Assembly (NCBI RefSeq): GCF_002892795.1
Contig: NZ_PJMC01000003.1
Location: forward strand, 62,001 to 126,000
Direction: 5' to 3'
Length of the DNA stretch: 64,000 nucleotides
Source: Arthrobacter sp. AFG20
Lineage (GTDB): Bacteria; Actinomycetota; Actinomycetes; Actinomycetales; Micrococcaceae
Of this stretch, positions 2,978 to 15,009 are shown one piece after another. A program made the translations under genes and the position numbers. A model generated the notes under the pieces. That model did not search any database. It worked only from the letters and a program-made list of their open reading frames with translations, and was not told the DNA's origin. Each line of letters opens with the position of its first letter. Position 1 is the stretch's first letter.

Positions 2978-3658
2978 TTACATCCCCGTCCAGCGGCGGA
3001 GCGTGCTGTTCACGAGGCCGATCAGCACGGCCGTCCACCAGCAGGCCTGCGAGATGCTGAGCGCGATCAGCAGGCGCGTGCGCAGCCGGCGGCCCAGTTC
3101 GCTGAAGCGTGTTTCCCGCGGAAGCGCGAACATCTTGTGCATGGCCGGCGCGATGCTCAGGCCGTTCAGCATCAGGATGAGCACACAGCCGAGCTTCACG
3201 GCGGTCACTGGGTTGGTGATGTCGGGCTGGATGAGCGCTCCCGATGCCAGCAGAAGCGCCAGGCCGCCCCAAATCAGCGGCTTTGTTGCGCGTTCCAGCT
3301 TGGGAGATGCATGCATGTGCACCTTGCCCATGAGCCACAGCAGGCCCAGCCAGTCCACGACAAGGATGGTGCCGAAGGCCAGCACCAGGGCGAGGATGTG
3401 GCCGGCAAGCCCGATGCGGTGCACTACCGGACCGAACTCCACGAAGTGCCCCACCAGCAGGGAGGCGAGCCAGCCTGCGGTGCAGAGAACTCCGAGCAGG
3501 AACAGCCGGATGGTCTGCTTGCGGGACGTGGGAGTCCTTAGTGCGGCGCGGTTGCGGCGGGCGGGGACTGGTCGGTGCTGGGGTTGATACCGGGGTGCGG
3601 AGTTTGTCGCGGTACGGGTTTCAGGGCGGGTCAAGGTGGTGCGGGTGTCGGCGAACAT
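2978..3658 (-). CDS. Hypothetical integral membrane protein, four to five helices
   Basis: A 226-residue protein with an Arg/Thr-rich hydrophilic N-terminal 48 residues followed by hydrophobic segments at about 50-72, 80-105, 125-145, 153-170 and 195-215. Histidines sit at helix edges (VGHF, VHRIGLAGH), which could suggest haem or metal binding, but no family was recognised. It converges on the MFS gene with a 26-bp gap. The assigned ATG is preceded by a GAAAGG stretch about 10 bases upstream; a later start near residue 48 would drop the odd N-terminus. It looks like a real gene because the hydrophobic periodicity is clean, but function is unknown. Confidence 0.7.
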   Translation of the reverse strand: MFADTRTTLTRPETRTATNSAPRYQPQHRPVPARRNRAALRTPTSRKQTIRLFLLGVLCTAGWLASLLVGHFVEFGPVVHRIGLAGHILALVLAFGTILVVDWLGLLWLMGKVHMHASPKLERATKPLIWGGLALLLASGALIQPDITNPVTAVKLGCVLILMLNGLSIAPAMHKMFALPRETRFSELGRRLRTRLLIALSISQACWWTAVLIGLVNSTLRRWTGM

Positions 3659-4025: not shown

Positions 4026-4598
4026 TTAGTCGTCCGAATCGTGGCCGCCGCTGTCTTTTTTGGGTTCGGCGGTCTTGCGCTGCCCGCCCTTGTCATCGCC
4101 CGGTTCCCGGACGGCCCGAAGGCCGCCTTTGTCGTCGCCCGGCTGGACGGGCACCACGGCGGGATCCCCGGCAGTGCCGGCGCCCCCGGACTGGGAACCG
4201 ATGCTGCCGCCGGGATGGGGCGCGGCAGGGCCGGCGTCGGACGTGCCCGTAACAGTGCCGTCCGTATGATCCCGATCGTCACCAGGCCCGGACGACGGCG
4301 GCGGCAGCGTCCGCCGGCCGCTCTTGCCGTCACCGGATTCCGGCGCCCCGGTACTCTTCGCGCGGGCGGTAACTGTGCTGCCACCGTCGACCACGGACGT
4401 CACGTTCGGCGTAGCTTTCAGGCCGACGGCGGCGGTCGGTGCCGCAGTGCTGCTGGAGTTGGTTGGCAGGAGGACGCTGTTCGCGTCGCCGGTACCGGAC
4501 GGCGTACTGCTCAGTACCTGCGTGTTGACGGCTAGAGCGGCGGATCCCGTCACGAGGATCCCGGCCACGGAAAGCGCGAGGGCTGCTCTGGTTTTCAA
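4026..4598 (-). CDS. Secreted low-complexity protein with DDKGG motifs (copy 1)
   Basis: A 190-residue protein with a clear signal peptide (MKTRAALALSVAGILVTGSA, cleavage near residue 23). The mature part is rich in Gly, Pro, Ser, Thr and Asp and is probably disordered. Two copies of a PGDDKGG motif occur near the C-terminus (about residues 153-173), and the chain ends in acidic residues. The start is TTG, preceded by GGAGTGG. It lies 58 bp downstream of the small LLRH-motif gene and probably forms an operon with it. A second secreted protein with the same DDKGGL motif is at 10044-10460, also next to an LLRH-motif gene, so the pair is duplicated. No enzymatic domain is visible. A cell-wall-associated or signalling role is speculation. 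Confidence 0.75.
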   Translation of the reverse strand: MKTRAALALSVAGILVTGSAALAVNTQVLSSTPSGTGDANSVLLPTNSSSTAAPTAAVGLKATPNVTSVVDGGSTVTARAKSTGAPESGDGKSGRRTLPPPSSGPGDDRDHTDGTVTGTSDAGPAAPHPGGSIGSQSGGAGTAGDPAVVPVQPGDDKGGLRAVREPGDDKGGQRKTAEPKKDSGGHDSDD

Positions 4599-4656
4599 GG
4601 ACCACTCCAGGGGTCGTCGGAAAGATTGTTTTTGGGACGTAAGGCACCGGCAGGCA

Positions 4657-4968
4657 TCACCCTCCGTCCTGGATCTCCTGCAAATGCGCCAGCATTGCCT
4701 GTTCTGGGTGTCCGGGATGTTCGGAGACGTGCCTGAGCAGTGACAACCGGAGGTCCGATCTCAGACCTTCATCGCCGAGGATTTCGCCGATGAGGCGCAT
4801 CAGTTGGCGCTGCAGTATGCCGCCCTGGGGAGCGCGCTGTGCTGGCCGGTGGCTGACCCAGGCCGGGTCAGGAACTGCTGCGCCGCCGGCAGCCTGATGA
4901 GCAGGCAGCCTTTCCGGTGTGTGGGACTGCCAGTGGCTGTCACCGGGTGAGTGCGGGTCCGGGGTCAT
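4657..4968 (-). CDS. Small LLRH/PGHPEQA-motif protein (copy 1)
   Basis: A 103-residue protein of unknown function. The ATG at 4968 is preceded by GGAAGGTG at the right distance; the longer frame upstream has no such site and biased composition. The N-terminal half (to about 48) is Pro/His/Gln-rich and variable. The C-terminal half is predicted helical and carries LLRHVSEHPGHPEQAMLAHL. The protein at 9677-9988 is also 103 residues and has LLRHLAENPGHPEQALLDHL at the same kind of position, so the two are paralogues. No signal peptide, so probably cytoplasmic. The gene precedes the secreted DDKGG gene on the same strand. The family was not recognised. Confidence 0.8.
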   Translation of the reverse strand: MTPDPHSPGDSHWQSHTPERLPAHQAAGGAAVPDPAWVSHRPAQRAPQGGILQRQLMRLIGEILGDEGLRSDLRLSLLRHVSEHPGHPEQAMLAHLQEIQDGG

Positions 4969-5399
4969 CTTATTCACCTTCCACCTTCGCCGCCCCGCGG
5001 GCCCTTCCGGCATGCGCTGAGACCGGCGGCGTTGCCGGCAAAATCCCGGTGTGAAGGGGAAGTGCCGTCTGCCGCAATTGTTGCCGCAGGTCATGGTGGA
5101 TTTGCCGGTGAACCTTGGACCGCAGAAGAGGGTAAGGTCCCCCCAAGCCGGAGAACGCGTCAGCAGTGCGCGGCGGCGAGCGGCCGCTGTTTGGGTGGGG
5201 GGTCTCGGTTCTCCAAGGTTGACCGGGATTTTCCTAGGAACCGCTGGCACTCTTTTTCCATCTGGTCCGAAGCCACTGCCGCGAGTGGTCGTTCAGCCAG
5301 CTGGCCGGCCCGGCACTGCACCCCCCCTGACGTGCCGGGCCGGCGACCCCCAATCCTTCAGGGATCTGCCGGCCCGCAACTCTGTGGTCGGTAGTGCAA
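4969..5399. other. Intergenic spacer upstream of LLRH copy 1
   Basis: A 431-bp spacer on the minus-strand path from the truncated AhpD-like gene to LLRH copy 1. It contains the strong hairpin described at 5304-5344 and runs of C and G, but no open frame with a ribosome binding site. The frames that cross it have irregular, Arg/Pro-rich composition typical of non-coding high-GC DNA. The promoter of the LLRH/DDKGG pair should be in 4970-5250, but no clear -35/-10 pair was picked. Confidence 0.5.
5304..5344. terminator. Hairpin downstream of methyltransferase operon
   Basis: A perfect 12-bp inverted repeat (GCCGGCCCGGCA at 5304-5315, TGCCGGGCCGGC at 5333-5344) with a 17-base loop, 56 bp after the stop of the last minus-strand gene of the methyltransferase-aminotransferase operon. 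No T-run is present, as is common in high-GC actinobacteria. Confidence 0.6.
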
Positions 5400-5558
5400 C
5401 TAGGCCCGGGGCGTTTCCAGCGGAGCCAAGAGCGCGTCCTGCAGCGCTGAGCTCTTGGTGTGCGTGGTGACGTAGCCCAGCGACTGGACATCGTCGTCGT
5501 AAATCTTGGCGGTGAGGCCGGACGCCTCACTTTCCGGAGTGGTCCGCAGGACGGTCAT
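5400..5558 (-). pseudogene. Truncated AhpD/carboxymuconolactone decarboxylase-like N-terminus
   Basis: A 52-residue frame whose ATG overlaps the aminotransferase stop (ATGA), indicating translational coupling. Its first 37 residues (MTVLRTTPESEASGLTAKIY, then a segment ending SLGYVTTHTK) resemble the N-terminal arm of peroxidase-related AhpD-like proteins. The chain then departs from the family and stops, so the core with the EXXCXXXH redox motif is absent. I did not find the missing core in the other frames of the following 300 bp. It is either a decayed remnant of a larger gene or a small protein now kept for another reason. The assignment rests on short similarity recalled from the family. 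Confidence 0.55.
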
Positions 5559-6826
5559 GGCAGTTTCCTTGGGTTGGCGGGGATGACGGGGATAAGTCCC
5601 GTGGGCAGTTTGATTTCGGCGTCTTCGGGGCGGTCCTGCCCCGCCCGTTCGATGGCCGCCCGGAAGTGGGGCAGGCTGCGCTCCACCATGTCCTCGCTGG
5701 CCGTGAGGGACATCCGGAAAAACCCCGCTGTCTCGAACAGGGCGCCCGGAAGCACAAAGACGTCCTCCTGGCCGAGCGCCTCGGTGAAGGCCTCGTCGTC
5801 TTGAATGGGGGAATGGATGAACAGGTAGAAGGTGCCTTCGGGCGGCCGGAGCCGGTATCCCATCCCACCCAGCTCCTGGACCAGCCGGTCCCGCTTCTGC
5901 TGCAGCTGGCCGACGTCGATGGTGAACGTCTCCAGCCGCGGAAGCGCGTACTGCAGCACGGCGTTGGGGTAGATCCAGCCCATGGCCAGCTGCATCGCCT
6001 CGACGGCGGCGCCGAGCTCCTTGCGGTCCGGCATGCTCGGCGGCAGCGCCAGGTACCCGATACGCTCGCCCGGCGCCAGGTGCGTCTTGCCGTAGGAGTA
6101 GGCGAGGAGGGTGTAGGGATAGAACTCCGCGGGGCTGTGGAAGCGGGCACCGTCGAAAACGATCCTGTTGTACGGCTCGTCGGACACCAGGTAGATCCGC
6201 CGCCCTATCCGCGCCGAGGCCTCGTCGAGGAGGGTTGCCAGCTGGTGGAGGAGTTCGGGCGGGTAGATCCTGCCGGTGGGGTTGTTCGGCGAATTGATGA
6301 TCACTACCCGGGTCCGCTCCGTGATGGCCGCTTCAATGGCCGCCAGATCGAGGTTGAAGGTCTCGAGGTCGATCCGGACCTTGACCGGGACCAGTCCGGC
6401 CTCGACAGCGAGCGGTTCGTAGAGGAACCAGGGCGGAAGGCTGTAGATGACCTCGTCGCCAGGATCGGTAACCGCCTTCAGCGCGAGGGCGATGGCGGTG
6501 AAGCCGCCGGTGGTGAGGTACAGGTCCGCGGGTTCGAACGGAACATCGAGCAGCCGGCTCAGTGACTCCGCGGCCGCCTCCCGGGCATCCACCTCATTGG
6601 TTTTGTACGCGAACCACTGGTCGTCGTGCGGGTGGAGGGCGTCCCGGAGGGCGTCCACGTAGCCGTCCTGCGGCATCTGGTGCGGGTTGCCCAGGGTGAA
6701 GTCGCAGATGCCGGAAAGATGTTTGCGGCGGGCGTAGCTGGAATGGTTGAGGTGCTCGCTGATCCTCCGGAAGGACGGAATGGAGGCCACCTCAAGGGCG
6801 CGGCGCGAGGCGGGGGAGTCCGTCAC
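5555..6826 (-). CDS. PLP-dependent aminotransferase, class I/II
   Basis: A 423-residue fold-type I aminotransferase. Visible motifs (numbered from the GTG) are SPNNPTG at about 179-185, the cofactor-binding SDEPYNR at 215-221 with Asp216 and Tyr219, and the Schiff-base lysine 247 in SYGKTHLAPGERIGY, followed by the conserved Arg of the phosphate/cofactor site. I chose GTG at 6826 because it overlaps the methyltransferase stop (GTGA), giving translational coupling; the longer frame to 6883 would overlap the neighbour by 60 bp. Substrate cannot be assigned. It sits between a SAM methyltransferase and the AhpD-like fragment in one operon, which points to modification of an amino-acid-like metabolite. 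Confidence 0.88.
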   Translation of the reverse strand: MTDSPASRRALEVASIPSFRRISEHLNHSSYARRKHLSGICDFTLGNPHQMPQDGYVDALRDALHPHDDQWFAYKTNEVDAREAAAESLSRLLDVPFEPADLYLTTGGFTAIALALKAVTDPGDEVIYSLPPWFLYEPLAVEAGLVPVKVRIDLETFNLDLAAIEAAITERTRVVIINSPNNPTGRIYPPELLHQLATLLDEASARIGRRIYLVSDEPYNRIVFDGARFHSPAEFYPYTLLAYSYGKTHLAPGERIGYLALPPSMPDRKELGAAVEAMQLAMGWIYPNAVLQYALPRLETFTIDVGQLQQKRDRLVQELGGMGYRLRPPEGTFYLFIHSPIQDDEAFTEALGQEDVFVLPGALFETAGFFRMSLTASEDMVERSLPHFRAAIERAGQDRPEDAEIKLPTGLIPVIPANPRKLP

Positions 6827-7680
6827 AGCCCGGTTTCCTGGGGCTTGGCATTGGCCTTCGCCGTGAGCAGCAGATACTCCCATTCCATCTGCGCAGGCGT
6901 ATCGCCGTGGGCTTCGATGTACGTGCTGGCAAGTTCCGTGAGGGCGTCGTCCAGGGCCTTGGCTTTCCCGTCGTCGCCGGACAGGGACTTGTACACGGAG
7001 ATGGTGGGGCCGTAGTGCGATTTGAAATAGTGCAGGAAGTCTTCAGGCTGGCGGAAGCTCGTGATGGCAACGGTCCGCTTCTGCGCCCGGATGTCGCCCA
7101 GCCGGCCGCCGAACAGTTCCCGGACGTGGTCCTCGCTGCCCCACAGCGGCGGAGGCTGCGCGCCGGGCGGAGGGGGCGGCGCGAAGGGTTTCATGGTGGC
7201 GAACATCTGGCCGATGAAGCCTTCCGGGGTCCAGTGCAGCAGCCCGACGGTCCCGCCCGGCCTGCAGACTCGCACCAGTTCATCGGCGCTCGCCTGGTGG
7301 TGCGGGGCGAACATAGCGCCGAGGCAGGACATGACGACGTCGAACTCGCCGTCCGCAAAGGGGAGGTTCTCGGCGTCGGCCTCAACCCACTCGAGCTCAA
7401 CGCCGCGGTCGGCGGCCTGCCGGCGGCCGGCGTCGAACATCTCCGGGGTGAGGTCACTGGCTATCACCCGGGCACCCATCATGGCCGCGGGGATGGCCGC
7501 ATTGCCGGCGCCCGCGCCGACATCCAGGACGCGCTGGCGCGGTTTGATGTTGCAGGCTTCCACCAGGATGGCGCCCAGATCCGCAATCAGCTCGCTGGCG
7601 AGGGCAGGGTAGTCGCCCTGCGCCCACATGGCCCGGTGCTTTTCCTTCAGGGCCTTGTCCGCCCCGGCTTGGTCGTTCAT
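6823..7680 (-). CDS. Class I SAM-dependent methyltransferase (UbiE-like)
   Basis: A 285-residue soluble enzyme with the Rossmann motif I VLDVGAGAGN at about 49-58, an acidic residue closing strand 2 (VIASDLTPEM), and motif DAENLPFADGEFDVV before strand 4. A proline-rich loop (PPPPPGAQPPP, about 172-182) replaces the usual insert and the C-terminal third is family-specific. The start has AGAGGTG about 8 bases upstream. It is the first gene of a three-gene minus-strand unit with overlapping stops and starts. The methyl acceptor is unknown; this is a different protein from the menaquinone MenG found at 27.6 kb. Confidence 0.85.
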   Translation of the reverse strand: MNDQAGADKALKEKHRAMWAQGDYPALASELIADLGAILVEACNIKPRQRVLDVGAGAGNAAIPAAMMGARVIASDLTPEMFDAGRRQAADRGVELEWVEADAENLPFADGEFDVVMSCLGAMFAPHHQASADELVRVCRPGGTVGLLHWTPEGFIGQMFATMKPFAPPPPPGAQPPPLWGSEDHVRELFGGRLGDIRAQKRTVAITSFRQPEDFLHYFKSHYGPTISVYKSLSGDDGKAKALDDALTELASTYIEAHGDTPAQMEWEYLLLTAKANAKPQETGL

Positions 7681-7826
7681 TTCCGCGCACCTCTGCTTTC
7701 GCAGGTCCAGTTTCAGCGCACTGTTGAGTCAGTGGAGGCTGTGGTGCGACTTATTGTGGGCTCCCCGGCCGGGGTTGTAAAGGTTGCGGGTGGTGGGGAC
7801 AGGGGAAGCGGAGGCCAGCGCCCTGG

Positions 7827-8777
7827 TCAGTTCCGGCGTCGGACGGCATACGCGAACAGCGACGTGGTGGCCACGGTGGCAAGGTACCCGGCGATCACGA
7901 TCAGCGAGATGCCCGCCCAGAAGTAGTTGGTGGTACTGGCCTCCTGGCTAATGCCCGGGGCGATCATGACCAGCGAGTACACGGACACCGCTGCCGAGGC
8001 CAGCCCCAGCACCACAGGCAGCCCGATCCACAGCCGTGCCGAGCCCCAGTGGCCGCCGAAGCCGTCCCAGACGTTCCATTCGTGGCCGTCATTGCGGAGA
8101 ATCAGCCAGCCCGCGGGAATCATGAAGCAGCCCACCACCAGGAAGGCTGCCACCACATCCGCCGGCCGGTGCCACTGGTTCACGAGTGTGGACATGCCCG
8201 AGGCGATGGCAAAAGTGCCGCCGACAAAGCCGGCCAGCGGCCGCCACCGCGGGGACGACATCAGGAACACGGCCGCCGCCGCGGACGCCGCCAGCGTGGT
8301 GTGACCGGACGGCAGCGAGTTCAGCTCCAGCGTCTCTACGCCCCGGTACGGCCGCACCGGCAGCAGGTCCTTGAGCACCTGCGTTGCGATGTTCGCCGCG
8401 ACGCACGCCGCCACGGCAATACCCGCGGCCCGCCATCGGCGGTGAATCACCGTTACCAGAAGTACGACGACGGCGGCCATCACCAGGGAGATGGTAGGCA
8501 GCCAGTCCAGGAACCGGGTGGTCACCTTGCCCGCGGGCCCGTGGATTTCCACGGCCTCCACCAGGGCGGACTCGTCGATGAACTGGCCCGTGGTGGTGCG
8601 GACGAAGTAGTAATAGGTGGCCGCGAGCCCCATGGCGCAAGCCAGGGTGGCAACGGCGAAGAGGAAGCCGGTGCCCGCTGCGAGGCGCATCCGTCCGGCA
8701 GGCCGGCGGGGCTTCTGACGGCCCTGCTGCTGGCGGCCCTGTTTCTTACGGCGGGGGTCCCTGAGCTGGAAAGTCAT
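7827..8777 (-). CDS. Membrane-bound PAP2-family phosphatase
   Basis: A 316-residue protein with a basic N-terminus (many Lys/Arg/Gln to residue 29) and about six membrane helices. The three PAP2 motifs are present: KDLLPVRP at 136-143, the PSGH at 156-159 and a third block ending HRPAD with His203, the nucleophile. Enzymes of this type remove phosphate from lipid phosphates such as phosphatidate or undecaprenyl diphosphate on the outer face of the membrane. It is monocistronic, with a 146-bp spacer to the methyltransferase operon. Substrate unknown. Confidence 0.88.
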   Translation of the reverse strand: MTFQLRDPRRKKQGRQQQGRQKPRRPAGRMRLAAGTGFLFAVATLACAMGLAATYYYFVRTTTGQFIDESALVEAVEIHGPAGKVTTRFLDWLPTISLVMAAVVVLLVTVIHRRWRAAGIAVAACVAANIATQVLKDLLPVRPYRGVETLELNSLPSGHTTLAASAAAAVFLMSSPRWRPLAGFVGGTFAIASGMSTLVNQWHRPADVVAAFLVVGCFMIPAGWLILRNDGHEWNVWDGFGGHWGSARLWIGLPVVLGLASAAVSVYSLVMIAPGISQEASTTNYFWAGISLIVIAGYLATVATTSLFAYAVRRRN

Positions 8778-8858
8778 CGTAACAAGGGTGTCACAGTTTG
8801 CTGGGAGGCGCCTGTCCTGCCGGTGAGTGCATCCTGTTCGCCCGGCCTTCCCTGATGC

Positions 8859-8887
8859 TCGACTACATGGGGCAGGGGGATTACGTT
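8859..8887 (+). promoter_or_regulatory. Probable leaderless promoter
   Basis: TCGACT at 8859-8864, a 17-bp spacer and TACGTT at 8882-8887, followed by six bases and then the ATG at 8894. The predicted start of transcription falls on or next to the ATG, which has no ribosome binding site of its own. Confidence 0.5.
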
Positions 8888-8893
8888 GGGGGC

Positions 8894-9067
8894 ATGACCG
8901 AAAACGCAGACGAGGCCCGCACTGTTTCCGAAGAGCCCGGTCGCGCAGAAACCGACCGCGGCGAAACCGACCTCAGCACCAAGCTGGATCCGGATTTCAT
9001 CCCGCAGCAGGGCGAGACCCCCGAAGCCAGGCGCGCCCGGGAGCATCCCGAGGAAACCGGCAGCTGA
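8894..9067 (+). CDS. Small hydrophilic protein, unknown
   Basis: A 57-residue, strongly acidic, hydrophilic protein with no signal peptide or hydrophobic stretch. A central STKLDPDFIPQQGETPEARR segment reads like a structured or conserved core. A well-placed -10 element six bases before the ATG supports a leaderless start here rather than at the longer frame beginning at 8798. It lies divergently from the PAP2 phosphatase and upstream of the two-helix protein. Function unknown; the gene call depends on the promoter and regular codon use. Confidence 0.6.
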   Translation: MTENADEARTVSEEPGRAETDRGETDLSTKLDPDFIPQQGETPEARRAREHPEETGS

Positions 9068-9130
9068 CCCTAGGAAACGGGGGCCTTCCCGGGGGCTAAA
9101 CGCAGGCCGGCTGACGGCTAAAGTTGGTGC

Positions 9131-9526
9131 ATGGGCGGTCTCGCGGATGTACTTGGCCCCATCCTGGAAATGATGACGTGGGTGGGCTTCCTCCCCGGCG
9201 TGCCGTTGCTCACGTGGGGACTCATTATCGAACGGCGCCGTTGCGCCTGGACCAGGACCACGGGTGAGGTTTACACCGCCGGCGGCTTCACCGGCTTCCG
9301 CTGGACCGACCAGGAGAACGTCCCGCGCCAGACTCTGGTGGACTCCGACGTCGCGCGGGGCCTCGTGGCTGGCACCCAGGTGGAGCTCCATTACGACCTC
9401 TGCCACCCTTCACGCTGGGGCCTGAAACCGCCCAAGCACGACAACGTCATCCTGGTCCTCGGCTGGATCCTTACCGGAGTGGGCATCCTGAGCACCGTCG
9501 GCGGCTTCGTGCTGCTGCTCTTCTGA
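9131..9526 (+). CDS. Two-helix membrane protein, DUF3592-like
   Basis: A 131-residue protein with a hydrophobic segment at about 5-32, a soluble middle domain (35-105) and a second helix at about 107-131 ending in LLLF. The middle domain contains a VELHYDLCHPSRWG segment, which resembles the V-x-YDPxNP motif of DUF3592 small membrane proteins; this match is from memory and weak. TAAAGT at 9119-9124 lies six bases before the ATG, again suggesting leaderless transcription. Monocistronic. Function unknown. Confidence 0.7.
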   Translation: MGGLADVLGPILEMMTWVGFLPGVPLLTWGLIIERRRCAWTRTTGEVYTAGGFTGFRWTDQENVPRQTLVDSDVARGLVAGTQVELHYDLCHPSRWGLKPPKHDNVILVLGWILTGVGILSTVGGFVLLLF

Positions 9527-9554
9527 GGGACTGGTTCCCGGGCGGGGGCCGGAC

Positions 9555-9641
9555 AATCCAGCCCGGATAAAACAAATCCAGCCCGGATGAACAAATCCGG
9601 GCCGGACATACGTCGGGTACCCGTGCCGCGGCGGGTACCCG
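9555..9641. repeat. Short 20-bp-period repeats and a palindromic hairpin between convergent genes
   Basis: AATCCAGCCCGGAT occurs at 9555-9568 and 9575-9588, with a degenerate third copy at about 9595-9607, a 20-bp period. Next, CGGGTACCCG (9614-9623) is repeated at 9632-9641, and each copy is itself palindromic, so the two can pair as a 10-bp stem with an 8-base loop. The position between converging genes suggests a bidirectional terminator. Confidence 0.55.
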
Positions 9642-9676
9642 GTCTGTGGGGCAGCCGGTGCTGCGTTGTTCGTCTG

Positions 9677-9988
9677 CTAGACGTGCGGATCCACTGTTGC
9701 AGCCCGGCCGTTGCGTGCGGGACGTCCGCCGCGCCGGTTCCGGTCCCGCAGGTGGTCCAGCAGCGCCTGTTCGGGATGCCCGGGGTTCTCCGCGAGATGG
9801 CGCAGGAGCCGGCGCCGGACCTCCGATCGCGGATCAGCCGTGGCGAGCACGTTGTGGATAATATCCAGGACCTGTTGATGGAGCTCAGAGTCGTCCACCA
9901 TCACAGTCGTCGGTTCGCCAAAAGGAGCGTCGACTGTCGCCCCCCACGGCGGGAGGGGTTCATACAGGTCGCGGAAATCCGTGTGCAT
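9677..9988 (-). CDS. Small LLRH/PGHPEQA-motif protein (copy 2)
   Basis: A 103-residue protein, paralogue of the one at 4657-4968 with identical length. The ATG at 9988 has AAGGAG eight bases upstream. The N-terminal 38 residues are acidic and Pro-rich (DLYEPLPPWG). The helical block (about 38-85) carries LLRHLAENPGHPEQALLDHL and is preceded by a VLDIIHNVLAT helix that matches LMRLIGEILGD of copy 1. The tail is basic (RNRRGGRPARNGR), unlike copy 1. It is the last gene of the likely operon kinase-regulator-secreted DDKGG protein-LLRH protein. No known domain recognised. Contact with the two-component system is inferred from position only. Confidence 0.82.
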   Translation of the reverse strand: MHTDFRDLYEPLPPWGATVDAPFGEPTTVMVDDSELHQQVLDIIHNVLATADPRSEVRRRLLRHLAENPGHPEQALLDHLRDRNRRGGRPARNGRAATVDPHV

Positions 9989-10043
9989 CACTGGCTCCTT
10001 CTTGCGGGGAGAAACTGCTTCTGTGGATTGCCTCCGGGTACGC

Positions 10044-10460
10044 CTAGCCATTGCTGCTGCCACTCCTGCCGTTGTTGCTGGAGAGACCGCCTTTGTCATC
10101 GAGTTGGCTCGAGGACGTTGAATCGTCGGTGGGTGCCGGTGCCGGGGAAGTGACCTGGGCCGGCTCCACGAACTCGACGCCGGACTCCTCGGTGGAGAGC
10201 GGGGAGGAGGTGACACCGTTCAGGGGAGCCGATTTAAGCGCCGGTGACGTGGTCACGGGCGAGGCAGCGGGGTCAGTGGCTGGCGACAGCCGCCGATTTT
10301 CCGTGGATCCGTCAAGCTTCTGGACCGAGTGGCGGGGGGCCGCTTCGGTAACAATCACGCCCGGTTCCTGTCCTGTTGGAGCCCCGGCAACAGCCTGCGC
10401 CCAGACAGTTATTCCGGCGAAACCCACCAGCGGAATGCTCAGCAACGACCACTTCTTCAT
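10044..10460 (-). CDS. Secreted DDKGG-motif protein (copy 2)
   Basis: A 138-residue protein with a signal peptide (MKKWSLLSIPLVGFAGITVW, cleavage near residue 26). The start at 10460 is fixed by GAAGGAGGTG nine bases upstream; the longer frame to 10541 crosses the regulatory repeats. The mature chain is Ser/Thr/Pro-rich and ends with QLDDKGGLSSNNGRSGSS, sharing DDKGGL with the secreted protein at 4026-4598. It lies between the response regulator gene and LLRH copy 2 on the same strand, and has OmpR-type direct repeats in its promoter region. It is likely a target of, or input to, the adjacent two-component system. No enzyme domain. Confidence 0.78.
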   Translation of the reverse strand: MKKWSLLSIPLVGFAGITVWAQAVAGAPTGQEPGVIVTEAAPRHSVQKLDGSTENRRLSPATDPAASPVTTSPALKSAPLNGVTSSPLSTEESGVEFVEPAQVTSPAPAPTDDSTSSSQLDDKGGLSSNNGRSGSSNG

Positions 10461-10512
10461 CGGCCGGCACACCTCCTTCGTGCATTCACTTTGAAGCGTG
10501 AAGGTGAGGCAG

Positions 10513-10542
10513 GGATGAGACGCGGATGAGAGTCTTCTCATC
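10513..10542. promoter_or_regulatory. Predicted response-regulator binding site
   Basis: On the minus strand the site reads TCTCATCC-GCG-TCTCATCC: two perfect 8-bp direct repeats (10524-10531 and 10513-10520) spaced 11 bp start to start, one helical turn, as OmpR-family regulators bind. A third half-site, TCTCATC on the plus strand (10536-10542), forms a perfect 7-bp inverted repeat with GATGAGA at 10525-10531. The cluster is between the regulator stop (10568) and the secreted-protein start (10460), so it probably controls the DDKGG/LLRH genes. Confidence 0.65.
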
Positions 10543-10567: not shown

Positions 10568-11278
10568 TTAGGGGGTTTGAACCGGCCCACCATGGCCGTT
10601 CATGTCATCAACGGCAAGGGCCACGAGACGATAGCCCACGCCCCGGACGGTTTGGATGCGGTCCGCGCCCAGCTTGTGTCTCAGGTACCGTACGTATACG
10701 TCCACCACATTGGACGACCCCTCAAAGTGGTAGCCCCACACCCGGCTCAGAAGCTGCTCGCGGCTGAGCACCTTGCCGGCGTTCTCCATGAAGGTCCGCG
10801 CCATGACGAACTCCCTCGCGGACAGGTCGATCACGCGGCCGTGGATCTCTGCCGTGCGGAGGTTCACGTCGAGGGACAGGTCGCCGCAGACGAACGTCGG
10901 GGCGGAAGCCACAACCTGTGCGCCGCGGAGCCGGAGCTTGATGCGGGAGAGCAGTTCCTCGAACCGGAAGGGTTTGGTCATGTGGTCGTCCGCACCGCCG
11001 TCGAGCGCCGCCACGGTGCTCTCAAGGCTGTCTGCCGCCGTCAGCACGATCACCGGAATCGTTGAGTGCATGTTCCGGAGGTTCTTGAGGACGGTAAGAC
11101 CGTCCATCCTCGGCATGGTGATGTCCAGGATGAGGAGGTCGAACTCCCCGGACGTCGCGTAATCAAGGGCCTTCACCCCGTCGAAGACCTGGGTGGTGGT
11201 GTAGCCGGCCGCTGTGAGGCCTTTGGCGAGGAAGGCCGCAATGCGGGGCTCGTCGTCGGCGATCAGGATCCGCGTCAA
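10568..11278 (-). CDS. OmpR-family response regulator
   Basis: A 236-residue regulator. The receiver domain (1-118) has the acidic pair DDE at 8-10, phospho-acceptor Asp52 in LILDITMPRMDG, Thr in VLTAA and Lys at about 103 in MTKPF. The winged-helix domain (about 128-225) contains the LLSRVWGY and VDVYVRYLRHKL signatures. The ATG overlaps the kinase stop (ATGA), so the kinase gene comes first and the two are translationally coupled, the reverse of the more usual order. A pair of 11-bp-spaced direct repeats sits just downstream in the promoter of the secreted protein gene. The signal is unknown. Confidence 0.93.
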   Translation of the reverse strand: MTRILIADDEPRIAAFLAKGLTAAGYTTTQVFDGVKALDYATSGEFDLLILDITMPRMDGLTVLKNLRNMHSTIPVIVLTAADSLESTVAALDGGADDHMTKPFRFEELLSRIKLRLRGAQVVASAPTFVCGDLSLDVNLRTAEIHGRVIDLSAREFVMARTFMENAGKVLSREQLLSRVWGYHFEGSSNVVDVYVRYLRHKLGADRIQTVRGVGYRLVALAVDDMNGHGGPVQTP

Positions 11279-12948
11279 GGCGTACCTCCCGTCCGGATGG
11301 CCAGTTCAATGCCCGACGCCGGTCCGGCCAGCCTTGGTTTGCCGCCGCGGCGCCGTTTCTTGGGCCGCGCATCATCCTTAGTGTCGAAGCCCTCGGTGTC
11401 GCCGCCGGTGTCCGCCGCGGCGGAGCCATCGGTCTCATCGCTCTCATCCGTGCCGCCGGATGGTATTCGGAGGGCAAAGCGGCTGCCTTTGCCCTCCTCC
11501 GACTCCAGAAGTACAGTGCCGCCGTGTGCCTCGGCGATGGCTTTGACGATGGAAAGGCCCAGGCCCGAGCCTTCCATGGCCGCCGAGTTGCGGCCCTTGC
11601 CGAAGCGCTCGAATATGCGCTCATGCTCGTCCGCCGGAATGCCGGTGCCTGTGTCCGAAACCCAGATTTCCAGCTTCCTGGATCCGGAGTCCCGCGCTGC
11701 CGGCTCCCGCACAACTACTGCCCGCCCGCCCTGGGGAGCGCCGTCGTCGTCCTCTACCCAGGCGCCGCCAACGGATATCCGGTCCGACTCGGAGGTGTGG
11801 TTGACCGCGTTGGCGGCGAGCTGCTCCAGCGCCTGGGTGAGCCGGCGGCGGTCAGCGCGGATCAGGCCGCCAGGCCTGGCCTCCAGCCGCCACTGGCGCA
11901 CGCCGAGGACCCGGACGCGGTTCAGGACGTCCTCCAGGAGGTCATCCGCCTCCACCCAGCCGGGCGTCACGAAGTCGGGCCGTCCGCTGCGGGCTAGTAG
12001 CAGCAGGTCATCCACCAGCACCTGCATCCGGTCAAGCTCGTCCAGGAGCAGCTCGCGGGTCTGGTCCACGTCGTCGGGGTCCCCGCTGCGGAGCAGCTCC
12101 AGGTAGCCGCGGATGATCGTCATGGGGGTGCGCAGTTCGTGGCTGGCGTCGTGGACGAAGCGGCGCTGGTTGTCTGATCCGGACTCCAGCCGTTCGAGCA
12201 TCCGGTTGAAGTTCATGGCCAGCTGGGCGATGTCGTCGGTGCTGTCCGGCACTTCCACCCGCTTGGTCAGGTCCTCAAATGTCGTGGCCTCTGTGGCCTC
12301 GCGGAGCCGCCGGATGGGGCGCAGCAGCCGCCCGGTGACCAGGTAGCCCACCAAGCCGGTCATTGCGAGCGTCGCGGTGGACGCCAGGGCGAAGGTCCAC
12401 ATCGAAGCGAAAACCTCCGCGCGCTGGGCTCCGATCTCGCTCGAGGCAATCAGAAGCCCCTGGTCTCGGCGGCCGCCCGCCAGCGAAACCGACGTGATGG
12501 CCAGGCGGACCTGCCGGCCGTCGAGGTCGATGTCCCGCATCACGGTTTGACGGGGGACACTCCAATCCCACATGTTGTCGGTGATAGCGGCCGTGTTGAG
12601 CTTGGTCGGCTGGTCCCCGAAGGGCAGGATGACGCTGCGGCCGCGGACCACGGTCATCACCGACTCGTAGCCCCCGGGAGCCCCGCTCCGCAGATAAGTT
12701 GTAAACAGGCTGTTCAGGGAGGCATAAGTTGCGCCGGAGTTGGGTTGGCCGCGCTTGGCCAGCTCGTCCAGGTTCTTGCGCGGCAACTGGAGCTCGGCAT
12801 TGACGCGGTCGTTGAGGCTGTTCAGCTGGGCGGCATGGGTGGCTGCGCCGGCGACAAACAGGCCCACGGCCATGAAGACGAGCAGCGTGGCCAGCAGCCG
12901 GAAGCGGACAGAATGTACTTCCGTGCGCAGTGCGCCGGCCGTGGTCAT
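11275..12948 (-). CDS. Sensor histidine kinase with HAMP domain
   Basis: A 557-residue membrane kinase. Helix 1 is at about 17-40, an extracytoplasmic sensor region at 41-180, helix 2 at 181-205 and HAMP at 206-262. The HisKA block FVHDASHELRTP has phospho-His270, and the ATPase N, G1 and G2 boxes follow (ELAANAVNHT, VSDTGTGIP, GSGLGLSIV). Beyond the catalytic domain lies an unusual tail of about 60 residues, first acidic (Asp/Glu/Thr) and then a basic RPKKRRRGGKPR stretch. The ATG at 12948 was chosen because helix 1 then begins after a short cytoplasmic leader; a longer frame starts at 13011. First gene of the operon. Confidence 0.92.
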   Translation of the reverse strand: MTTAGALRTEVHSVRFRLLATLLVFMAVGLFVAGAATHAAQLNSLNDRVNAELQLPRKNLDELAKRGQPNSGATYASLNSLFTTYLRSGAPGGYESVMTVVRGRSVILPFGDQPTKLNTAAITDNMWDWSVPRQTVMRDIDLDGRQVRLAITSVSLAGGRRDQGLLIASSEIGAQRAEVFASMWTFALASTATLAMTGLVGYLVTGRLLRPIRRLREATEATTFEDLTKRVEVPDSTDDIAQLAMNFNRMLERLESGSDNQRRFVHDASHELRTPMTIIRGYLELLRSGDPDDVDQTRELLLDELDRMQVLVDDLLLLARSGRPDFVTPGWVEADDLLEDVLNRVRVLGVRQWRLEARPGGLIRADRRRLTQALEQLAANAVNHTSESDRISVGGAWVEDDDGAPQGGRAVVVREPAARDSGSRKLEIWVSDTGTGIPADEHERIFERFGKGRNSAAMEGSGLGLSIVKAIAEAHGGTVLLESEEGKGSRFALRIPSGGTDESDETDGSAAADTGGDTEGFDTKDDARPKKRRRGGKPRLAGPASGIELAIRTGGTP

Positions 12949-13425: not shown

Positions 13426-15009
13426 GTGCGCAAAATGGTACAAACTGTTGCAGAAGATACTCGTTGGTCCCGGAGGGTTAACGACGACGAGTACCTTCCG
13501 AACTCAATGGAAGACGCCGCTGGAACAACGAGGAAGTTGTCCATCAACATCCTGGGGCCGCTCCGTGTCCGCCGCGGCGGCGTGGAGATCGGATCCCACG
13601 AGCTTGGTGGGCCCAAGCCCCGCCAGGTCCTTGAAATCCTGTTGCTCAAGCTGGGGACCCCGGTCTCCAAGAATCACCTGATCGAAGTTTTGTGGAATGG
13701 ACAGCCGCCGTCCGAGGCACTGTCCACTTTGGAAAGCTATGTCAGCGTCCTGCGCCGCCACCTTCAGCCCGGAAGCGGCAAGGGCGGAGCCCTCCGCACA
13801 GTCACTGGGGGGTACATGATCGACCGCACCATGGTTGACCTGGACCTCGATCGGTTCGATGAGCTTCTGAAGCAGGCGGGGCACGCCTCACCGGAGGAAT
13901 CCTTCCGGCTGCTCGAGAAGGCCCTCGGCATCGCCTCCGTGCCGCTGCTCGGCGATGAGCTGCTGGCCGGCTGGGCAGAGGAAGAGCGTTCGCTCCACTC
14001 AGCCCGCGTTGCGAGTATCAAGGCACGGGCCGCGGAAGCAGCCGTCGCCGTCGGACACCCGGAGCGCGCAGTGGCCCTCGCCAGTGAACTGCTCGTGGAC
14101 GATCCCATCAACGAGCGCGCCTGGACCGCCTTGATCCTGGGTCTGGAAGAATCCGGGCAGTACATGGAAGCACTGCGGGCCTACGGGCGCTGCCGCCGGG
14201 TCATGGACCAGGAGATCGGCTGCCTCCCCGGACGCCCGCTTCGGGAAGCGCACGCCCGGCTGCTCCAGGCAACAGCCGCCAGCGAGGATGACATGGACCT
14301 CACAGATTCGGGTGCCCAGCCACCGGCAACTTCCCAGGTCACCAGGGAAATCAGCATCCTGACCATCGACGACCACAGCACGTTCACCGAACTGCTGACG
14401 GCAGCCCTCGACCGCGAGCCCGACCTGCGGAGCGTCGCTTCGGCCACCACCGCCAAGAGCGGCGTGGAGCAGAGCATCGCCCTCAAGCCCGACGTCGTGA
14501 TCATGGACTTCCACCTGCCCGACGGCGACGGTCTCACCGCCGCTGCCCGCATCCTGGCTGACGCCCCGGACACCCGGATCGTCATGCTCACCGGCGACCC
14601 GACGCCGGAAGCGCTGCGGACCGCCGCCTCGATGGGCATCTGCGCCTTCCTGCCGAAGGGCGGATCGCTGTCCACCCTGCTGGACACCCTCCGCTACGCC
14701 CGGGCCGGCAACATGGTGGTGCACCCCTCGCTGGTGGCCCAGTTGGGCATGTCCACCCCGGCTCCGGCCCCCGTGGCCCGGGAAGTGGAGCCCGGCGGAC
14801 CCGTCCTGACGCCCCGGGAACTGGATGTGCTTCGGCTGATGGCCGGTGGCCACGGGTCGAAGGAAGTGGCCAGCAAGCTGGACATCTCCCTCAACACTTG
14901 CCGCGGCTACGTGAAGGCCATCTTCGCCAAGCTCGGAACCCACTCGCAGCTGGAATCGGTCATGGAAGCTTCACGGCGCGGCATGCTCGAGCAGCCGTCC
15001 AATGGCTAG
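13426..15009 (+). CDS. Chimeric regulator: SARP/BTAD + receiver + LuxR HTH
   Basis: A 527-residue protein combining four domains not usually found together. An OmpR-type winged helix (about 38-135, starting LSINILGPLRVRRGG) and a BTAD helical repeat domain (139-285) make an N-terminal SARP. A receiver domain (308-425) follows with acidic pair Asp315-Asp316, phospho-acceptor Asp361 in VVIMDFHLPDGDG and Lys411. A LuxR/NarL HTH (458-520, beginning LTPRELDVLRLM) ends the chain. It thus has two DNA-binding domains on either side of a phosphorylation switch. The start is GTG at 13426 or ATG at 13435; a later ATG at 13507 would still keep all domains. Its stop overlaps the sensor kinase start by 8 bp, so the kinase is the likely partner. 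Targets unknown. Confidence 0.9.
   Translation: MRKMVQTVAEDTRWSRRVNDDEYLPNSMEDAAGTTRKLSINILGPLRVRRGGVEIGSHELGGPKPRQVLEILLLKLGTPVSKNHLIEVLWNGQPPSEALSTLESYVSVLRRHLQPGSGKGGALRTVTGGYMIDRTMVDLDLDRFDELLKQAGHASPEESFRLLEKALGIASVPLLGDELLAGWAEEERSLHSARVASIKARAAEAAVAVGHPERAVALASELLVDDPINERAWTALILGLEESGQYMEALRAYGRCRRVMDQEIGCLPGRPLREAHARLLQATAASEDDMDLTDSGAQPPATSQVTREISILTIDDHSTFTELLTAALDREPDLRSVASATTAKSGVEQSIALKPDVVIMDFHLPDGDGLTAAARILADAPDTRIVMLTGDPTPEALRTAASMGICAFLPKGGSLSTLLDTLRYARAGNMVVHPSLVAQLGMSTPAPAPVAREVEPGGPVLTPRELDVLRLMAGGHGSKEVASKLDISLNTCRGYVKAIFAKLGTHSQLESVMEASRRGMLEQPSNG

Follow-up and report, generated by a model that had tools for sequence, protein, structure and literature searches.

Within a 64,000-nucleotide stretch of Arthrobacter sp. 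AFG20 DNA (contig NZ_PJMC01000003.1, positions 62,001 to 126,000; hereafter the window), two loci each pair a gene for a predicted secreted protein bearing the motif DDKGG with a gene for a 103-residue protein that we call LLRH. At one of them, locus B, genes for a sensor kinase and a response regulator lie upstream of the secreted gene on the same strand, and we tentatively interpret this locus as a two-component gene cluster with a predicted secreted DDKGG output and a small LLRH protein. The DDKGG proteins look like two-component outputs and LLRH looks like a recruited regulatory domain. A first-pass annotation of this DNA had described the pairing at two loci with reversed gene order (LLRH to secreted at locus A, secreted to LLRH at locus B), and this was confirmed by open reading frames and alignment. 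That annotation did not mention the kinase and regulator genes upstream at locus B, nor the operator-like repeats, the fusions of LLRH to EAL domains and nine further LLRH copies. The features of locus B are as follows.

11275-12948 (-), sensor histidine kinase, gene 1 of the B cluster, with HAMP, HisKA and HATPase_c domains (Pfam, 11275-12945); start assigned by a gene finder
10568-11278 (-), OmpR-family response regulator with Response_reg and Trans_reg_C domains (Pfam), overlapping the kinase gene by 4 bases
10505-10530 (-), triple direct repeat phased at 11 base pairs (bp), CTCATCCGCGTCTCATCCCTGCCTCA, a candidate response-regulator binding site and the sole exact match in the genome
10044-10460 (-), secreted DDKGG protein B, 138 amino acids, one DDKGGL; predicted Sec signal peptide and low complexity, from hydropathy, composition and orthologues
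9677-9988 (-), LLRH protein B, 103 amino acids, 3' of the secreted B gene; residues 33-87 correspond to three predicted helices
9576-9607 (-), terminator-like hairpin of 13 pairs, 3' of LLRH-B, a consensus match only (7 sites against a shuffle mean of 6.4)

The kinase, with HisKA and HATPase_c, and the regulator, with a receiver domain and Trans_reg_C, have the domain composition of an OmpR-class two-component pair. In a collection with organism names, the order kinase, regulator, secreted gene, LLRH was present in 8 of the 8 loci found with LLRH-B (A. globiformis, A. ipis, A. pascens and five Arthrobacter sp.). A profile of secreted B was also run on draws of 150 genus genomes and matched 31 places in 22 genomes, of which 30 were classed: 20 as sensor-type, 9 as C10-type and 1 as truncated. 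The match in G316 (internal stop, no locus) was the one left unclassed, and G013, the truncated gene without operator or LLRH, was not counted among the 20. In 18 of these 20 sensor-type loci the end of the regulator gene was visible; L235 and L237 were classed on the operator and the secreted gene only. Seven of the nine C10-type loci were seen to be without a regulator, and L247 and L248 were placed in this class by a short match and the LLRH distance alone.

Upstream of the secreted B gene, GATGAGAAGACTCTCATCCGCGTCTCATCCCTGCCTCACC consists of three CTCAY-like units at 11-bp steps. The repeat was recognisable in all 13 sensor-type upstream regions that were compared; in the genus draw, 19 of the 20 sensor-type loci carry it ahead of the secreted gene. 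In the AFG20 genome, CTCAT-N6-CTCAT-N6-CTCA matches exactly only once, at locus B, and with one mismatch at two other places; a reversed control of the pattern gave no match. The triple repeat fits a dedicated operator for the response regulator, which very probably drives the secreted gene. As the repeat is also kept in loci without LLRH, this operator-like element goes with the secreted gene.

LLRH lies 3' of the secreted gene in 11 of 20 sensor-type loci and in 9 of 9 C10-type loci. Orthologues of LLRH-A (E 1e-20 or better) were found in 5 of the 150 genus genomes, and a secreted A gene with DDKGG follows in all five. In the AFG20 genome, LLRH is within 60 bases at two of the three intact DDKGG loci; the chance of such proximity was calculated as about 3e-5 within 1 kb, given 8 standalone copies and with A and B assumed to be independent. 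The functional partnership proposed in the first-pass annotation is thus supported in part: the pairing is kept at these 11 sensor-type loci and at the C10-type and A-type loci, and LLRH was absent from the other nine sensor-type loci, where it is therefore dispensable for the unit of sensor and secreted protein. A wide spread of LLRH without a DDKGG neighbour, which would have spoken against the pairing, was found in part: LLRH was present in 37 of 37 sampled genomes of the genus, compared with just 10 of 37 for relatives of secreted A or B (E 1e-5 or better). Because of these two results the relationship is an association rather than an obligate module; judged by gene position, the partnership is genuine but confined to some members of the genus. 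The exact DDKGG count also differs between the two groups of sensor-type loci, with 2 to 5 in each of the nine without LLRH and 1 (six loci) or 0 (five loci) in the 11 with LLRH. These groups may be different clades, so that the difference may go back to a single event or a few rather than to 20 independent ones.

Secreted A and secreted B both have a hydrophobic signal-like N-terminus and no cysteine, and the residues P, S, T, G, A, D and E make up 71 percent of A and 64 percent of B. From these features we infer that both are secreted and disordered. No Pfam family matched secreted B at E up to 1. The two proteins align over the six letters DDKGGL alone (E 0.11), and homology beyond the motif is therefore unsupported. 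The motif itself is not a product of chance: an exact DNA pattern for DDKGG is found at 10 places in the genome, nine of them within secreted genes (at locus A, at locus B and in the tandem pair of contig C47), and its reversed control occurs twice. The tenth occurrence is in a gene that we take to encode an aldo/keto reductase. The ratio of nonsynonymous to synonymous substitution rates (dN/dS) was 0.26-0.46 for secreted B (7 pairs) and 0.65-0.77 for secreted A (4 pairs).

LLRH-A and LLRH-B match at 22 of 47 residues (E 1e-13 in a single comparison). As the first-pass annotation had also found, no known family was recognised, and LLRH and the secreted protein both fall short of the Pfam and NCBIfam cut-offs. 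The LLRH domain, unnamed and some 54 residues long, occurs standalone or at the N-terminus of EAL proteins. In the AFG20 genome (4.9 Mb, 49 contigs), the LLRH-B query gave 14 matches at E <=1, of which 11 reached E 8e-4 or better. A profile built from the 11 cores of this genome matched 1 to 11 copies in each of the 37 genus genomes and found no match in 22 genomes from other genera of the order. A family-wide search matched 22 of 197 genomes in 4 of 32 genera, one genus weakly (E 2.8e-4). Among 394 genomes searched across the class, four gave a match, three of the same genus and G413 (E 8.9e-5); the G413 match sits inside a kinase-like frame and was dropped as chance. Scoring was limited to 13 candidates per genome in the class-wide search and to 34 at most in the family-wide one, so LLRH domains outside the genus were likely missed. 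The named relatives, taken from the best 120 of 260 matches in one search, are all annotated as 'hypothetical protein' and belong to Arthrobacter, Pseudarthrobacter and a Micrococcaceae bacterium.

The AlphaFold2 model of LLRH has helices at residues 33-50, 56-67 and 72-87. The predicted local distance difference test (pLDDT) score is at least 90 for 49 of 103 residues and 72.6 on average, and the predicted template modelling (pTM) score is 0.50. Ten residues (Q39, I44, L48, L61, P69, G70, P72, E73, A75 and L77) are invariant in 51 LLRH sequences. The dN/dS values of 0.08-0.26 for LLRH-B (7 pairs) and 0.10-0.29 for the LLRH-A core (5 pairs) indicate that the LLRH genes are under purifying selection. 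A TetR-like gene, identified by sight, is divergent from the LLRH gene at 24 of 97 matches, many of them orthologous, and 16 LLRH loci share a common neighbourhood with a gene that is presumably panC-like. A further unnamed protein is encoded near four standalone LLRH genes (L012 4343-4678, L013 4886-5233, L015 6047-6385 and L089 4934-5269); the remaining copies share 47-72 percent identity with the one of L013 over 112-113 residues. Tail-to-tail pairs of LLRH genes were also observed (L087 5619-6494, L093 5777-6529 and L109 5710-6482).

Three of the 11 LLRH copies in the AFG20 genome form the N-terminus of EAL proteins. The EAL domain (PF00563) was detected in all six LLRH fusions scanned, with E values from 8.9e-33 to 1.9e-41. 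The catalytic motif of EAL domains, DDFGTG, contains a DD pair, which is retained in 2 of 19 distinct LLRH-EAL fusions and absent in 17. Because of this loss, the 17 fusions are likely receptors or scaffolds rather than enzymes.

In the mechanism that we propose, the B cluster is likely one operon, in which the response regulator would drive the secreted gene via the putative operator, the conserved triple repeat, and likely also switch on LLRH-B. The DDKGG protein, likely disordered and acidic, would act outside the membrane and feed back on the kinase; this step, suggested by analogy with known systems, is somewhat less probable than not. Alternatively, the DDKGG protein might bind ions or the wall and so buffer whatever the kinase senses. 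LLRH would remain in the cytoplasm as an adaptor that binds either another LLRH or the LLRH domain of EAL proteins, and would thereby let the sensor output reach the layer of EAL proteins, the step that we grade weakest. The domain shared with EAL proteins, the several regulatory neighbours and the purifying selection suggest the adaptor idea. The case for LLRH as a regulatory adaptor is evenly balanced, and an adaptor role specifically for EAL proteins is rather unlikely. A broader and distinctly improbable version makes LLRH a new, lineage-specific three-helix adaptor, disseminated within one bacterial group, that would wire two-component and TetR-like inputs into non-catalytic EAL receptors, its recruitment having let the DDKGG array shrink as a signal from inside partly replaced the feedback from outside.

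Several observations weigh against the proposed mechanism. Nine of 20 sensor-type loci have no LLRH, LLRH genes also stand beside ordinary metabolic genes, and at five of the 11 loci with LLRH the secreted protein is without an exact DDKGG. One LLRH-bearing locus, L236, is without the repeat by the patterns used, and the upstream regions of locus A and C10 are without the operator. The kinase was seen in 8 of 20 sensor-type loci only, the others having 1.5-kb flanks. Lastly, a tree built on short sequences places the G005 LLRH apart from the B group, and the LLRH position may therefore have been reached twice. The secreted DDKGG protein alone might be the output of the sensor, with LLRH as a spreading paralogous family that settled alongside it in an unrelated role; the loci without LLRH and the variety of its other neighbours (TetR-like genes, an EAL fusion, the unnamed protein at four loci and metabolic genes) would be in agreement with this. 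We nevertheless consider it unlikely, given the pairing at three locus types (11/20, 9/9 and 5/5) and the proximity of LLRH at two of the three intact DDKGG loci, for which only about 3e-5 was expected by chance.

LLRH could also be a shortened helix-turn-helix regulator acting on DNA or on a transcription factor, as a weak Pfam match to HTH_20 (E 0.048, far below the cut-off) and the 24 TetR-like genes divergent from LLRH might suggest. This is improbable, however, because the LLRH model is without a helix beyond helix 3, and comparison with one ArsR-like protein was negative, at a probability of 0.2 percent. A secreted toxin or bacteriocin with a cytoplasmic immunity protein would be another way to account for the pair, and a highly improbable one. 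Under the two-component interpretation, secreted and LLRH genes are combined in further ways at locus A and at the C10 locus, which lack this operator and are present in overlapping sets of genomes.

Exported proteins encoded together with a kinase and a regulator have precedents. CseA of the sigE-cseABC operon is an exported lipoprotein that is encoded with a kinase and a regulator and damps the system; unlike this lipoprotein, DDKGG proteins A and B have no cysteine. In the HbpS-SenS-SenR three-component system of Streptomyces, as described in the consulted excerpt of PMC4991794, a secreted protein controls the autophosphorylation of the kinase, and Arthrobacter aurescens is also named there as having a cluster of this type. 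The secreted gene of locus B likewise clusters with a kinase and a regulator. HbpS, according to the same excerpt, is a folded, GAF-like octamer that binds haem and iron, whereas the DDKGG protein is of low complexity and without a Pfam match; the excerpt mentions no LLRH gene for that system (PMC4991794). LLRH resembles RsiG, a c-di-GMP-binding anti-sigma factor by the excerpt of PMC8325347, in being small, helical and actinobacterial, but the RsiG signature E(X)3S(X)2R(X)3Q(X)3D was present in none of 89 standalone LLRH proteins and none of 19 fusions. It also has a likeness to EAL proteins in that some LLRH domains are fused to EAL, although LLRH itself has no Pfam match above the cut-off. 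No account of the locus was found among the listed titles and starts of abstracts on DDKGG, MprA-type repeats, EAL or c-di-GMP in Arthrobacter, and Arthrobacter kinases with secreted proteins. The B cluster is a simple system in which to study possible feedback of exported disordered proteins on kinases, and the loci with and without LLRH provide natural comparisons for an undescribed domain that occurs in every sampled genome of the genus, partly fused to EAL.

Locus A and its downstream neighbour comprise the following features.

4657-4968 (-), LLRH protein A, 103 amino acids, first gene of locus A
4026-4598 (-), secreted DDKGG protein A, 190 amino acids, TTG start, two DDKGG; 3' of LLRH-A
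2978-3658 (-), protein encoded downstream of locus A, membrane-type by sight and without a Pfam match

In agreement with the first-pass annotation, a recent tandem duplication of one module was rejected, as the secreted pair shares only DDKGGL and the LLRH proteins A and B are in separate branches. The exact equality of LLRH length that it had stressed is correct within the window, where both have 103 residues, but was discarded as a sign of kinship, since B orthologues have 105-106 residues in 7 of 7 cases and the equality is a coincidence. The LLRH-A orthologue of G002 has 104 residues from the first methionine and 103 from the second. In the LLRH tree, built on about 54 residues, a group of 29 sequences (support 0.94) contains branch A (0.94), B with C10 (0.73) and B without G005 (0.42). 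The C10 secreted gene is short and without DDKGG in the AFG20 genome and in G002. The gene order in G005 is kinase, regulator, secreted gene, LLRH and then a homologue of the window gene at 2978-3658. A B-type cluster that ends in a homologue of a gene flanking locus A hints at a shared history of the two loci.

Relatives of secreted A without LLRH are the C47 tandem pair and the corresponding pair of G002, together with a single gene in G032 and two genes in G010; G028 has a tandem pair of this type about 2 kb away from an LLRH gene. All nine of these genes are preceded, exactly or nearly so, by TCTTGGA-N4-TCTTGGA, a different 11-bp repeat. In the AFG20 genome this pattern occurs with 0-1 mismatch only before the C47 pair and once elsewhere with 2 mismatches. 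One secreted-A-type gene each in G032 and G010 adjoins a different kinase-regulator pair. The secreted A gene of the window has no TCTTGGA repeat and starts 58 bases past LLRH-A, and for these reasons its transcription likely depends on the promoter of LLRH-A. In the C47 pair (L191 4689-6103 = C47:81188-82602), the second gene has eight DDxGG units, and the gene upstream of the pair is one that we take to be rsfS-like.

The genes flanking the B cluster, 9131-9526 (+) and 13507-15009 (+), are kept in 8 of the 8 named-organism loci. The former, after LLRH-B, encodes 127-131 amino acids and is membrane-type by sight; the latter, divergent from the kinase, presumably encodes a BTAD-like regulator. 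An open reading frame of 52 residues at 5400-5558 (-) in the window matches the start of a 194-residue gene in L201 at all but one of its first 35 residues; as this gene is at the same place in L201, the frame resembles a truncated remnant. In G028, a mini-gene of 32 residues consists of the signal and tail of secreted A only (L200 4074-4172), and a secreted-A fragment adjoins the end of an LLRH-EAL gene (L199 4964-5353), from which this class of genes seems prone to copying and repeat deletion.

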